This document shows positions 10,924 through 14,225 of a DNA stretch of 21,354 nucleotides, one piece after another. The first letter of the stretch is position 1. Each line of letters opens with the position of its first letter. The notes beneath the pieces were generated by a model. It saw only the letters and a list, made by a program, of their open reading frames with translations, made no database searches and had not been told where the DNA came from. Both the position numbers and the translations under genes were made by a program. The DNA is from a virus. The DNA lies in IMG/VR virus record IMGVR_UViG_3300043410_000642, positions 1 through 21,354 of that record; one strand, written 5' to 3'.

Positions 10924-11181
10924 TTAAAGATCATTAGAGTTATCTTTAGAGTATTGCAAGAAGTGTGCCAAGTCTTCTACATCATCGTCAATGACGTCAA
11001 GATCGTCATCAATCTCATCAAGATCAGCCTCTGTGATTAAGTCTTTTCTGTCGATGGTGGGCACAAACGGCTTCACATCTTCAAAACAAACCTTGCACAA
11101 GTCAATAAACTGGAATGTGTTAGCGTTACGACGAGTAGATTCAAACTCAGTCAGTAAACGATCGCAGCAGCTACAATGCAT
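10924..11181 (-). CDS. Small zinc-ribbon-like protein with acidic tail
   Basis: An 85-residue protein starting MHCSCCDRLLTEFESTRRNA. Cys3, Cys5 and Cys6, then LCKVC (Cys29, Cys32), make up a small zinc-ribbon candidate. The second half is very acidic (EADLDEIDDDLDVIDDDVED). Similar 'CSCC..LLTEFEST' proteins occur in many phages, with no role that I can name. GGAG stands before the ATG next to a small hairpin at 11193-11206. An acidic tail might mimic DNA or bind a host enzyme, but that is speculation. Confidence 0.74.
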   Translation of the reverse strand: MHCSCCDRLLTEFESTRRNANTFQFIDLCKVCFEDVKPFVPTIDRKDLITEADLDEIDDDLDVIDDDVEDLAHFLQYSKDNSNDL

Positions 11182-11568: not shown

Positions 11569-11924
11569 TTAGAGTCACCTCTAATTGTAGGGAATGAATC
11601 TAAAGGGTTTTTACCTTCAAAATAGGCGTCTTGCAAGGCCGTAGATGGCTCTTTCACCAATGAATCCTTGAATTCTTGGTAGGCATCAGGGTCATCCCAG
11701 TAAGACAACATCCTATGCTTATCCCATGCGTCATAGCGTTCACTAATGAACATGGCAAATTCACAATCTAAGTCACCTGATTCAAACTTACTTTCAAATT
11801 CTGATTCATTCATTCTATTATCTCCGTATAAGTTACCACAGTTAAGACAAGCCAAAGCCTTTGGTATACCTACGTTAGCGTAATCCCAATTAGGTGAGTT
11901 ACATTTTGGACATCTCCGCATCAT
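11565..11924 (-). CDS. Zinc-ribbon protein, 119 residues
   Basis: The N-terminus MMRRCPKCNSPNWDYANVG with CLNCGN (Cys27, Cys30) is a C-x2-C...C-x2-C zinc ribbon. The rest (from MNESEFESKFESGDLDCEF) is acidic and helical with many aromatic residues. The start overlaps the previous stop as TAATG with AGGAG before it. A second ATG at codon 38 also has GGAGA ahead, so a ribbon-less product is possible. The zinc ribbon suggests nucleic-acid or polymerase binding, but no partner is evident. Confidence 0.72.
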   Translation of the reverse strand: MMRRCPKCNSPNWDYANVGIPKALACLNCGNLYGDNRMNESEFESKFESGDLDCEFAMFISERYDAWDKHRMLSYWDDPDAYQEFKDSLVKEPSTALQDAYFEGKNPLDSFPTIRGDSK

Positions 11925-12169
11925 TACTCTCCTAAGTTATAGGTTAAATTGTCGATACTATCCCCGAAGTTATCCCATTCCCTGTAAAAGTCTAGGTCAT
12001 CATCGGTAGACAGTTGATTGATTACAGGTGAGTACTTTTCTATTACCTTTTTAGCCTGAGACAATAGGTATAGCAGTTCATCACGTGTAGACACAAGTTC
12101 ATCACATAGAGGATTGCCTTCAGCCCATAGACGGCGTTCTAGAGATACAAAGTCATTGTTATTAAGCAT
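11924..12169 (-). CDS. Hypothetical helical protein, 81 residues
   Basis: Starts MLNNNDFVSLERRLWAEGNP. The sequence is mostly amphipathic helix (RDELLYLLSQAKKVIEKY) with an acidic end. It has no cysteine pair or membrane segment. It lies 12 bases after the previous gene and overlaps the next by one base. Not recognised. Confidence 0.7.
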   Translation of the reverse strand: MLNNNDFVSLERRLWAEGNPLCDELVSTRDELLYLLSQAKKVIEKYSPVINQLSTDDDLDFYREWDNFGDSIDNLTYNLGE

Positions 12170-12181
12170 GGTTTATCCCTC

Positions 12182-12511
12182 TTAAAATTGAACATAAACG
12201 AGGTTGCATTGATCTGATGTTTGACCAATAAGAATCGAGGCTGATTCAATAAAGTCTTTAACCTGCTGAATATGCTCTTGCTCTGTGTCTTCAGGGCTTA
12301 ACTCAATCCCGTATAAATCAGCAATTTCACTATAATGCCCTTCTGAGTATTCACAGCAGATACCGATAACGTCTAACTCCACATCAGAGCCACAGTCGTT
12401 GAGATAGTCGAAGATTAAGCCTAGAGCCTCATAACTGAACTGGTCACCACGACCGCAGCGGTGGAACTGGTCACGGAATTGTGAAGCGGTGTCAATGGTT
12501 TGGTAAATCAT
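12182..12511 (-). CDS. Conserved-type hypothetical protein, 109 residues
   Basis: Begins MIYQTIDTASQFRDQFHRCG and contains QFSYEALGLIFDYLNDCG and ELDVIGICCEYSEGHYSEI. This arrangement (F-R-D...FSYEAL..LFDYL...ELDVI..CCEYSE) recurs in small proteins of phages and mobile elements, often near early genes. I know of no established function. It is acidic overall. A loosely placed AAGGAT stands well upstream of the start. Confidence 0.78.
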   Translation of the reverse strand: MIYQTIDTASQFRDQFHRCGRGDQFSYEALGLIFDYLNDCGSDVELDVIGICCEYSEGHYSEIADLYGIELSPEDTEQEHIQQVKDFIESASILIGQTSDQCNLVYVQF

Positions 12512-12538
12512 GGTCTTGATCCTTAAGAGGTTGATTGA

Positions 12539-12616
12539 TTACAGAGTAAGCCACACTACCACAATAGCGATAGCATAGAGCCAGTATAGTACAGTTTGAC
12601 TGATAGAGTTGTTCAT
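12539..12616 (-). CDS. 25-residue membrane peptide
   Basis: MNNSISQTVLYWLYAIAIVV followed by VWLTL. A polar start is followed by a single hydrophobic helix with Trp and Tyr at its ends. AAGGG lies seven bases ahead of the ATG. It occupies the otherwise empty 135 bases between two genes. A longer frame on the same strand at 12492-12689 overlaps it but has no binding site and an unlikely composition. Role unknown. Confidence 0.55.
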   Translation of the reverse strand: MNNSISQTVLYWLYAIAIVVVWLTL

Positions 12617-12646
12617 GATAGTTTCCCTTAGATTGATTGTGGCTGA

Positions 12647-12859
12647 TTACATGCCATATACTGCTGCGTGAGACATAGCAGCTGCGCAAGCTTCTTTGCG
12701 TGCGTTGTAGTAAGCCTTAGAGCGTGTAGAGAATACGTTACGGATAACTAGGGATTCTTTATTACCTTCCCTGCGTGTAACTACTGCTGCATAACCATTA
12801 CGGTCTGCGACAGTGTAGCCACTGAATGTAGTGTTTGTCTTGGTGTTAGTGATTAACAT
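12647..12859 (-). CDS. First gene of the leftward operon, basic 70-residue protein
   Basis: Starts MLITNTKTNTTFSGYTVADR, followed by strand-like segments and a basic helix (STRSKAYYNARKEACAAA). Net positive charge fits a DNA- or RNA-binding early protein, but there is no known domain. GGAG lies eight bases ahead of the ATG. It is the closest leftward gene to the promoter at 12965-12992, so it would be among the first made. That makes a host-takeover role plausible, by position only. Confidence 0.68.
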   Translation of the reverse strand: MLITNTKTNTTFSGYTVADRNGYAAVVTRREGNKESLVIRNVFSTRSKAYYNARKEACAAAMSHAAVYGM

Positions 12860-12921
12860 GTGAGTGCTCCGATACTTGGTGAGTTACTCCGCAGCTCCGT
12901 GCCTTGGATGCAGTTTACTTA

Positions 12922-12934
12922 GCACGTAGCGTGC
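12922..12934 (-). other. Leader stem-loop upstream of the first leftward gene
   Basis: GCACG/CGTGC with a three-base loop, in the ~100-base leader between the predicted leftward promoter and the gene at 12859. There is no T-run. It could shape the 5' end of the long leftward transcript. Confidence 0.35.
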
Positions 12935-12964
12935 CAGCTTAGTATTTGTAATACTTGAGTATAC

Positions 12965-12992
12965 ATTATATATTTGTAACCTCTTAAGTTAA
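12965..12992 (-). promoter_or_regulatory. Predicted leftward sigma70-type promoter
   Basis: On the minus strand there is TATAAT (rc of 12965-12970), with TTAACT 16 bases upstream (rc of 12987-12992; four of six bases match TTGACA). It is placed correctly to start the leftward operon about 100 bases before its first gene. The -10 is perfect and the -35 is weak. Confidence 0.5.
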
Positions 12993-13035
12993 TACTAATC
13001 TGTTCAGTGTTGTACCATTACAACGCCCATTAATA

Positions 13036-13096
13036 GTGCATAATTCCCTTTGATGGTGCATTATTGCACCTAAATTGTGCATCTAAGTGGCACAAT
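13036..13096. repeat. GTGCAT repeats and nested inverted repeats
   Basis: GTGCAT occurs at 13036, 13056 and 13077, spaced 20 and 21 bases (about two helical turns). The second copy forms the perfect inverted repeat GGTGCA-TTAT-TGCACC (13055-13070). The third forms ATTGTGC with GCACAAT (13074-13096). The cluster lies 45-105 bases upstream of the leftward -35. This is the layout of a multi-site operator or a DNA-binding initiator array; the protein is unknown. Confidence 0.5.
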
Positions 13097-13383
13097 AGTT
13101 GCTTAGATTTACCCCTGATAGTGTCTTGATAGTGTAGCTTATTAGGTGCTACATAGCCATACACACTAGTCCTTTACTGACTACTGAGTCATTAGCTACC
13201 TGACTAGAACCTGACTTAGTACCTTTGATGTAACTTGATAGGGGGGAGGGGTATCGTTAGTGTTTTACTTTGACGGGAGCCTCCTAAGTACACAAAAAAG
13301 TCAAATAAGGACTTGTTGTAAAAAGAAGACAATATAGACTAAAAAGTCTAATAAAATCAACATAGTTACTAATTTAATTAGGG

Positions 13384-13421
13384 ACAGGTTAGACCATAGA
13401 AGTAATGGAGACCTAATCTGT
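13384..13421. other. Imperfect stem-loop in the control region
   Basis: ACAGGTTAG pairs with CTAATCTGT (nine pairs, one G-T), with an inner CCAT/ATGG stem and a seven-base loop. Four unpaired bases bulge on one side. No T-run follows. It may be an RNA structure in a leader, a DNA extrusion site or chance. Confidence 0.35.
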
Positions 13422-13458
13422 GCACAGGAGCCTGTCATAGAGGCTCTAGAGGGGCTAT

Positions 13459-13473
13459 GAAAGTGGACACAAG
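13459..13473 (+). repeat. First copy of a 15-base repeat
   Basis: GAAAGTGGACACAAG, identical to 13689-13703. Upstream bases CTAT here correspond to CTA in the second copy with one base inserted, so about 18 bases match. Repeats of this length in an intergenic region of this size are unlikely by chance. Confidence 0.6.
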
Positions 13474-13544
13474 AGGTCTATGAAGTAAAGAATTAGATGA
13501 TAGACTCTAATATGGATGTCTATGAAAATAAATGTAAATAAAGC

Positions 13545-13572
13545 TTGACATTTGAGAAAAGTACTGTACAAT
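13545..13572 (+). promoter_or_regulatory. Rightward sigma70-type promoter ahead of the terminase genes
   Basis: TTGACA (13545-13550), a 16-base spacer and TACAAT (13567-13572). The -35 is perfect and the -10 has five of six bases. The surrounding AAATAAAGCTTGACATTTG is almost repeated at the promoter before the portal gene. The spacer and -10 overlap GTACTGTAC, a possible small operator. Confidence 0.6.
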
Positions 13573-13601
13573 ATTCTATGAAGATAATTCTTCCAAGAAC
13601 T

Positions 13602-13670
13602 CAAATGAAGTTACTAAGTAGACAAGCTGCTTAGCTAATACAAGATGTTTCTAAATGAGGTTACTTAGTT
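13602..13670. repeat. Pair of 19-base imperfect direct repeats
   Basis: CAAATGAAGTTACTAAGTA (13602-13620) and TAAATGAGGTTACTTAGTT (13652-13670) match at 15 of 19 positions and are 50 bases apart, downstream of the rightward promoter. Meaning unknown. Confidence 0.4.
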
Positions 13671-13688
13671 AGCCCTAGTGTTCTCCTA

Positions 13689-13703
13689 GAAAGTGGACAC
13701 AAG
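13689..13703 (+). repeat. Second copy of a 15-base repeat
   Basis: GAAAGTGGACACAAG, 230 bases after the first copy. Here it is followed 15 bases later by TATAAT (13719-13724). TGGACA inside the repeat would be a -35 with a poor 19-base spacing. Confidence 0.6.
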
Positions 13704-13770
13704 GGTTAAATAAGAAGTTATAATAAATACTTCATTTAGATTCTTGTACATATATGTTAACTTACATAGA

Positions 13771-13782
13771 TACTTTAAAGTA
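13771..13782. repeat. 12-bp palindrome shared with 10845-10856
   Basis: TACTTTAAAGTA, a perfect palindrome about 60 bases ahead of the small terminase gene. It is identical to the one in the leftward intergenic stretch at 10845. A shared regulator site is likely if it is not chance in AT-rich DNA. Confidence 0.45.
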
Positions 13783-13841
13783 CTCTAAGTAGGTGTAATC
13801 CTATTTACTATTATTGTGTACATCTCCGTATAAGGGCAAAG

Positions 13842-14225
13842 ATGGCTAGACCAAAGAAACAAGACCTAGTAGCGGTCAAAAACAAGAACAAAGGCATTAT
13901 CGGTAGGCCTAAGGGTGATAAAGCTATCATTGACGAGTATAAGGCTCGTATGCTTAATTCCCCTAAATCAGCTAAGGTGCTAGAAGCTATCTTCGATGCA
14001 GCCCTTAATGATGACCATAAGAACCAAGCTGCTGCGTGGAAGCTGATTGTGGATAGAGTGGTACCAGTAAGTGCATTCGAGACAGCAAAACAAGGCAATG
14101 GTTCTGCTTCTATTAGCATTAACATTATGGGTCTTGGTCAAGCTACAACAGAAGTTATTGACAATGATGTCGAAGTTGACATCCAAGATGTCGAAGTAAA
14201 GGACTCAGACGATGACGAGTCTTAA
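13842..14225 (+). CDS. Terminase small subunit
   Basis: A 127-residue DNA-recognition subunit of the packaging motor. It selects phage DNA and hands it to the large subunit. It starts MARPKKQDLVAVKNKNKG and has a basic, Lys-rich N-terminus, GRPKGDKAIIDEYKARML, and the helical segment HKNQAAAWKLIVDRVVPVS (about 67-85). The acidic C-terminus (DVEVKDSDDDES) may contact the large subunit. AAGGG stands before the ATG. It overlaps the large terminase gene by 14 bases, the classic arrangement. The call relies on characteristic sequence features plus position. Confidence 0.85.
   Translation: MARPKKQDLVAVKNKNKGIIGRPKGDKAIIDEYKARMLNSPKSAKVLEAIFDAALNDDHKNQAAAWKLIVDRVVPVSAFETAKQGNGSASISINIMGLGQATTEVIDNDVEVDIQDVEVKDSDDDES

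Follow-up and report, generated by a model that had tools for sequence, protein, structure and literature searches.

What do three copies of the hexamer GTGCAT, set 20 and 21 bases apart between the leftward and rightward genes of a virus, bind, and which promoter do they serve? The window, by which we mean the whole stretch of DNA analysed, is the 21,354-bp virus record IMGVR_UViG_3300043410_000642 of IMG/VR, taken from position 1 to 21,354. It encodes T7-type replication proteins (primase-helicase and family A DNA polymerase) leftward, its terminase and portal genes read rightward, and a control region of about 980 bp (982 bp, 12860-13841) parts the two blocks. Viral contigs hold many close relatives of this phage record. 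Among annotated phages no terminase match exceeds 60% identity, positions 12400-13800 have no DNA match in phage records, and two scans of bacterial genomes (two peptide patterns each; terminase and DNA polymerase alignments) returned no relative.

The GTGCAT copies as parts of three phased dyads

The GTGCAT copies lie on the plus strand at 13036-13041, 13056-13061 and 13077-13082. The hexamer is not enriched across the window (9 copies on both strands against 11.7 expected), and when the 982-bp intergenic region was dinucleotide-shuffled 5000 times, three copies never fell within 61 bp; the cluster is real and not a chance event. The original prediction had described this spacing together with two inverted repeats on the second and third copies, and both descriptions hold. 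The inverted repeats are side effects of a larger order, in which each GTGCAT copy supplies the right half of a 17-bp dyad. The three dyads, with spacings of 20 and 21 bp, are the true units. The same dyads were also found as direct repeats (family D2), shifted one base rightward. In the following list, dyads are scored as matching letters out of 12 against TGCACY-N5-RGTGCA, and centres are counted from the predicted leftward start.

13024 to 13040, no strand: NtrC-type dyad 1, CGCCCATTAATAGTGCA, 9/12, left half poor, centre about -122
13044 to 13060, no strand: NtrC-type dyad 2, TTCCCTTTGATGGTGCA, 10/12, right half perfect, centre about -142
13065 to 13081, no strand: NtrC-type dyad 3, TGCACCTAAATTGTGCA (TGCACC-TAAAT-TGTGCA), 11/12, best of the three, centre about -163
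13055 to 13070, no strand: inverted repeat GGTGCATTATTGCACC, the right half of dyad 2 facing the left half of dyad 3
13075 to 13095, no strand: inverted repeat TTGTGCATCTAAGTGGCACAA (TTGTGC...GCACAA), pairing dyad 3 (right half) and the -24 box of a sigma54-type element that faces rightward

When the intergenic region was shuffled 1000 times, 9 shuffles gave at least one dyad of the grade of dyad 3 and 1 gave at least two dyads at 10/12. Dyads 1 and 2 have poor left halves in the window, and the position of dyad 1 is the same in five relatives.

Promoter elements around the dyads

A sigma54 promoter is recognised by a -24 GG and a -12 GC with 10 nt between them, in the context TGGCAC-N5-TTGC, and an NtrC enhancer by at least two in-phase sites some 70-150 bp or more upstream of such a promoter. 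Transcription from a sigma54 promoter requires RpoN together with an AAA+ activator. Sigma54-type elements with 12 of 13 consensus letters were found in both directions around the dyads, and no site scoring at least 12 arose in 300 shuffles of the intergenic region.

12921 to 12937, minus strand: leftward sigma54-type -24/-12 element CTGGCACGCTACGTGCT, with GG at 12934-12935, GC at 12922-12923 and 10 nt between; 12/13
13087 to 13103, plus strand: sigma54-type element GTGGCACAATAGTTGCT facing rightward, next to dyad 3, with its start predicted at about 13114, toward the terminase genes; 12/13
12965 to 12992, minus strand: sigma70-like TTAACT-N16-TATAAT, between the enhancer and the sigma54 element, 10/12, a possible second leftward promoter
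12948 to 12965, no strand: palindrome-like GTAATACT-NN-AGTATaca (GTAATACT-NN-AGTATTAC), centred on the region some 47 bp before the predicted leftward start; 13/16 letters
12647 to 12859, minus strand: first leftward gene, 70 aa

The leftward element, which the original prediction did not mention and whose -12 box in the window is GTGC and not TTGC, has a predicted start at about 12910, 51 nt before the ATG (12859) of the first leftward gene, and that start codon has a CGGAG ribosome site ahead of it. Judged from sequence, this predicted sigma54-type promoter is the best-supported leftward one. The dyads stand at -122, -142 and -163 from its start, in steps of 20 and 21; in the window's sub-group of relatives they are also about 40-80 bp from the predicted rightward start. 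We take the places -142 and -163 to resemble those of Klebsiella nifL. The palindrome at 12948-12965 has at least 13 of its 16 letters in 17 of 38 loci carrying the leftward element, a grade reached in 0.7% of shuffles, and is a putative regulator site just behind the sigma54-polymerase.

Other promoter-like sequences were seen further away. A 13/13 sigma54 match at 10955-10971 was rejected as a promoter and read as coding sequence, since it lies inside the gene at 10924-11181 and has similar copies in two relatives (L013 and L046). Sigma54 matches also recur downstream of the terminase in other loci, and a near-perfect rightward sigma70 promoter, TTGACA-N16-TACAAT (11/12), lies at 13545-13572 in the window, 270 bp before the small terminase gene.

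Conservation and geometry in relatives

The first scan gathered 80 relatives, 51 of which extend 1700 bp or more upstream of the terminase, and three scans combined gave 95 distinct loci, the window included. The 51 include four pairs with near-identical terminases, which left the conservation result unchanged. A leftward sigma54 element of at least 12/13 is present in 38 of the 51 (shuffles: mean 0.475, i.e., about 0.5, and maximum 3), and 19 of the 51 have a perfect 13/13, a score that no relative reached in 40 shuffle rounds. Across the 95 distinct loci, 53 carry the element at 12/13 or better and 36 have none of at least 11/13.

For the dyads, we searched the 260 bp upstream of the leftward element in the 38 loci for arms matching at least 11 of 12 letters at every gap from 0 to 11. 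The gap of 5, which is that of NtrC sites, gave 35 dyads in 29 of the 38 loci against 0.3 in shuffles, and the remaining gaps gave two dyads at gap 0, one at gap 9 and none elsewhere. The nine loci without such a gap-5 dyad are four whose best dyads at the NtrC gap score 9 or 10 (L013, L029, L031 and L034) and five of another type, described below. A search over 53 loci, with all 4-letter arms, gaps of 3-12 and 20 shuffle rounds, was topped by TGCA-N9-TGCA in 20 loci and GCAC-N7-GTGC in 18, where the shuffle maximum was 7. Also above 7 were, among others, TGCA-N4-TGCA (15) and GTGC-N6-GCAC (13), which may derive from neighbouring half-sites, and TGTA-N11-TACA (14) and GTTG-N8-CAAC (12), which point to further elements.

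The arrangement recurs as well as the sites. The leftward and rightward sigma54 elements are 166 bp apart in the window and in six relatives (L002, L036, L043, L050, L055 and L094), in all six of which the rightward element scores 13/13; in L002 the leftward one reaches just 11. Dyads occupy -122/-142/-163 in the window and in the first five of these relatives, where the stretch from promoter to first dyad is 56-77% identical in 14 of 15 pairs and 91% identical in one. Other groups place three dyads at about -131/-152/-183, -108/-129/-160 or -168/-189/-220, in steps of about 21 and 31 or of 30 and 23, all near whole helical turns. In each of the 38 loci an ORF lies behind the leftward element, as judged by a lax test (ATG, at least 45 aa, GGA-like ribosome site, within 400 nt) that was run without a control. 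Conservation of sites and spacing, which the original prediction had named as its test, is thus found both in the 29 of 38 loci and in the five same-layout relatives.

These data bear on a competing reading, in which leftward transcription would start mainly at the sigma70-like site (12992-12965), the dyads would bind its activator or repressor, be it NtrC or another protein, and the sigma54-like element would be secondary. The site stays a rival because its -10 box, TATAAT in the window, is kept in four of the five same-layout relatives (6, 3, 5, 5 and 5 of 6 letters) and only the -35 is lost; the conserved palindrome moreover overlaps its start region. Nevertheless, the -35 matches just 2, 1, 1, 1 and 2 of 6 letters in those relatives, being kept in none, such sites are frequent in this AT-rich region (11 found against 6.3 expected), and the sigma54 element stands far above chance across the family. 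We therefore consider a sigma70-type main start very unlikely, although the site may have some role.

The genes behind the leftward promoter

The 70-aa product of the first leftward gene has no Pfam or PHROG match. By tblastn it was matched in 1 of 80 relatives; among the 32 whose sequence continues for at least 1.5 kb past the promoter it was again matched in one and absent from the other 31, whereas the gene at 11924-12169 was matched in all 32 of these loci. A variable block next to a promoter is usual for early host-takeover genes, and the first leftward genes may well be of that kind.

The original prediction had proposed that a dimeric protein binds cooperatively upstream of the leftward promoter, and had offered the 12647-12859 product as one candidate binder. 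The same-face spacing, the dimer-type (palindromic) sites and the position upstream of a leftward promoter are all supported. The phage-encoded binder did not survive the comparison, the gene occurring in so few relatives while the sites and the promoter are widespread, and we rejected this product as the candidate.

Host NtrC as the likely binder

The published NtrC site is the 17-bp TGCACCAnnnTGGTGCA, as given in the accessible text of two papers (PMC8743547; also PMC4987338), and NtrC enhancers often lie 70-150 bp upstream of their promoters according to the accessible part of a third (PMC3844500). In the window, dyad 3 agrees with this site in 11 of 12 letters and dyads 1 and 2 more weakly. 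The consensus of 54 distinct dyads from the phage family is TGCAC[TC]-A-WWW-T-GGTGCA, in which positions 7 (A in 30 of 54) and 11 (T in 42 of 54), neither used in selecting the dyads, also agree with the published consensus. Some dyads in the family lie farther upstream than 70-150 bp.

Searches for a factor encoded by the phages themselves were negative. The sigma54 activator family PF00158 was found in none of 13 possibly incomplete records, with all 14 controls matched, and no GAFTGA-like motif was seen in the loci searched. The T7-type single-subunit RNA polymerase family PF00940 was found in none of 11 records (the window and 10 relatives of 36-39 kb), although the control phage MK984681 was matched; the window is a fragment and the other ten may be fragments too, so that a gene missing from these records is not proven to be missing from the genomes. 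The gene that would mark an Autographivirus, a single-subunit RNA polymerase gene of its own, was accordingly observed in none of the 11. With neither a phage RNA polymerase nor a phage sigma54 activator found, host factors are implied: the binder is likely host NtrC and the enzyme likely the host's sigma54-polymerase. The host would then possess both NtrC and RpoN. The integrase family PF00589 was likewise found in none of 11 records of the phage family (14 of 14 controls matched), and the one weak PHROG integrase match (E 0.0087) was to a protein that matches better elsewhere. Since no integrase family was found in these records, we treat the phage as probably of lytic type.

Could the dyads instead be operators of a phage-encoded repressor or activator governing divergent promoters, in the style of a lambdoid switch? 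Phased palindromes between divergent units, and many small leftward genes without a family, would suit such a switch. Yet the phage proteins scanned, a subset of the ORFs, included no regulator family, the first leftward gene has its single relative among the 80 loci, the dyad type varies between close relatives where the sigma54 element stays, and the consensus equals that of NtrC down to its inner positions. We give a phage-encoded switch very little credence.

Taken with the geometry, the evidence makes it quite probable, in our judgement, that host NtrC, or a very close host relative of the same specificity, uses the three phased sites as an upstream activating sequence (enhancer) for the leftward sigma54 promoter at 12921-12937. 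Counting against this are the poor left halves of dyads 1 and 2, the GTGC form of the -12 box, the sigma70-like -10 box, the TGTC-N8-GACA dyads found away from the enhancer's place, and those relatives that lack a leftward element or have one with none of the three enhancer types. A caution comes from a paper on cyanophage Pho boxes, whose accessible text describes the prediction of regulator sites in phages as unreliable (PMC10976474).

In such a system, dimers of phosphorylated NtrC would occupy all three dyads along a single face of the helix and assemble into a hexamer, which would contact, via a DNA loop, the sigma54-RNA polymerase waiting at 12921-12937 and open the promoter. Transcription would then run through the fast-changing gene block and on toward the replication genes, so that the nitrogen-limitation system of the host would switch the leftward transcription of the phage. 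In the window's sub-group, the rightward element at 13087-13103 could share the same enhancer.

Apparent exchange of the proposed enhancer among relatives

Nine relatives retain the sigma54 core and carry other phased dyads in the enhancer's place, either TGTC-N8-GACA or GGYAAAWWTTGCC. Five of them (L037, L057, L059, L061 and L080), which are the five loci set aside above, have no NtrC-type dyad of at least 9 letters and together carry 11 exact copies of TGTC-N8-GACA upstream of the leftward element. These and four copies that are off by one letter lie at about -75 to -90, -118 to -146 and -138 to -164. In that stretch, exact TGTC/GACA dyads at any other gap from 2 to 14 are absent, and the other 33 loci have no exact TGTC-N8-GACA there. 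The dyad does occur anywhere in the control region in 23 of 95 loci, and thus also away from the enhancer's place. The palindrome seen at 12948-12965 in the window lies about 65 bp upstream of the start in most loci of the TGTC group. The remaining four relatives (L130, L161, L166 and L172) have three GGYAAAWWTTGCC sites in 21-bp steps, 58 bp from the leftward element. To our knowledge, the GGYAAAWWTTGCC class has no known activator; NtrX (CAA-N3-5-TTG) is a possible lead.

GlrR sites at sigma54 promoters, TGTC(N)10GACA in the accessible text of PMC4987338, share the inverted TGTC/GACA arms of the five loci. The gap of the phage dyads is strictly 8 and not GlrR's 10, and their activator is therefore probably another one. 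A literature search for PilR sites gave nothing usable for the activator of TGTC-N8-GACA.

On a terminase tree of the 95 loci, built by a quick method, the five states need 20 changes against a shuffled mean of 44.5, a count to which recombination between terminase and control region could add. One clade (starred in the tree) mixes the TGTC and NtrC types, with L057, L061 and L080 beside L087 and L089, and the TGTC-type L037 pairs with the NtrC-type L046 with a support of 86.

A further 11 of the 95 loci have a leftward element without any of the three enhancer types. Three loci (L066, L156 and L190) have two perfect sigma54-like elements in tandem, facing rightward, and none of the three enhancer types. 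We also observed two or three tandem perfect sigma54-like elements, facing leftward and again without the three enhancer types, in L211 and L212.

Such tandem elements, two or three in each of these five loci, would fit the idea that the sites and sigma54 elements are decoys, which titrate NtrC or the sigma54-polymerase and so weaken the stress response of the host. This we hold to be highly improbable: the element, its distance and the gene orientation fit a working promoter in the window and in the 38-locus set, an ORF follows in every one of the 38 by the lax test, and a handful of sites would titrate little.

Other boxes in the control region

Several further boxes were observed. Between 2200 and 300 bp before the terminase, 48 of 95 loci (e.g., L044, L046 and L006) hold exact DnaA boxes (TTATCCACA), and the window's region has none; in the relatives these boxes could mark an origin or a DnaA-controlled promoter. 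The 13-mer AATGATTCTCATT, which we take to resemble a Fur box, is present in 18 of 95 control regions (e.g., L002, L047, L050, L071 and L161). Together with ACTGACTnnTnAGTCATTAG, GTTGT...ACAAC and other palindromes, it looks like part of a shuffled set of host operator sites. A G-rich box, GGGGGGAGGGG, lies at 13241-13252 in the window, is followed by TTACTTTnGnnGGAGCCTC in many relatives and is kept in 89 of 95 loci, perhaps for packaging or processing. Between the enhancer and this box, TAGGTGCTACATAGCC...CACAC at 13144-13167 recurs in many of the relatives compared. A reading as an RNA element was rejected, Rfam giving no match at gathering score in 12500-14200.

It is extremely unlikely that the repeats serve as iterons in a replication origin. 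In favour are the three imperfect 17-bp direct repeats at 20-21 bp (D2) and the exact DnaA boxes in about half of the loci (48 of 95). On the other side, the window's region has no exact DnaA box, the palindromic gap of the dyads is strict and their place is fixed with respect to the sigma54 elements, and the phage has a T7-type polymerase and primase-helicase with no initiator family among the proteins scanned.

Known systems and biological meaning

Enteric NtrC enhancers at sigma54 promoters of the glnA, glnK and nifL type share with the host-NtrC arrangement proposed here the 17-bp TGCACC-N5-GGTGCA dyads described in the accessible texts (PMC8743547, PMC4987338), several of them in phase, upstream of GG-N10-GC. 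The phage arrangement differs in that it stands in a virus, faces a leftward block, has three sites and, in the window's sub-group, lies next to another sigma54 element that points the opposite way.

That phages draw on nutrient regulators of their hosts is already known, because NtcA sites have been predicted and PhoB binding has been shown in cyanophages. Cyanophage promoters with host NtcA share the predicted response to a host nitrogen regulator, and the accessible part of that study differs from the present case in having no sigma54 enhancer or exchange of regulator types in it (PMC3037559). In another accessible text, cyanophage genes, including DNA polymerase, answer to the two-component system for nutrient shortage through host PhoB, whose binding to cyanophage sites was shown in vitro; there the nutrient is phosphate and not nitrogen, and several separate promoters respond instead of one enhancer-driven promoter before a leftward block (PMC10976474). 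By a different route, Salmonella that has lost RpoN resists two phages better, owing to effects on glutamine and RpoS, according to the accessible portion of a further paper (PMC8744999). Among the matches listed in our literature search, the titles and opening lines of abstracts named no sigma54- or NtrC-dependent early promoter of a lytic phage, subscription papers standing outside this search.

NtcA is a CRP-type activator of cyanobacteria, and the PhoB-responsive cyanophage is a T4-like myovirus; cyanophage genes under host PhoB were reportedly studied by Zeng and Chisholm in 2012. The general view is that lytic phages begin from host promoters that are strong and unregulated. If the reading proposed here is true, the virus, with a main promoter that depends on an ATP-driven activator of the host, could gauge the condition of the cell before it commits, and phage growth in nature would depend on nutrient status, which is directly testable. 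The phage likely reads the nitrogen state of its host, perhaps since nitrogen-short cells are normal in its habitat.

On a wider reading, about which our judgement is evenly divided, phages in which we found neither an integrase nor an RNA polymerase gene would have wired their main leftward promoter to sigma54 and would treat the enhancer as a sensor cassette open to exchange. Sets of about three sites, of the NtrC type (nitrogen), of TGTC-N8-GACA or of GGYAAAWWTTGCC, would swap at the same core, each lineage sensing a different host signal, and with the nearby DnaA- and Fur-like boxes the whole region would amount to an assembly of host sensors. That closely related phages differ in enhancer type offers a natural experiment in regulatory evolution. 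The virus probably ties its gene expression to a stress-response circuit of its host, and some of its relatives appear to have swapped that circuit for others.
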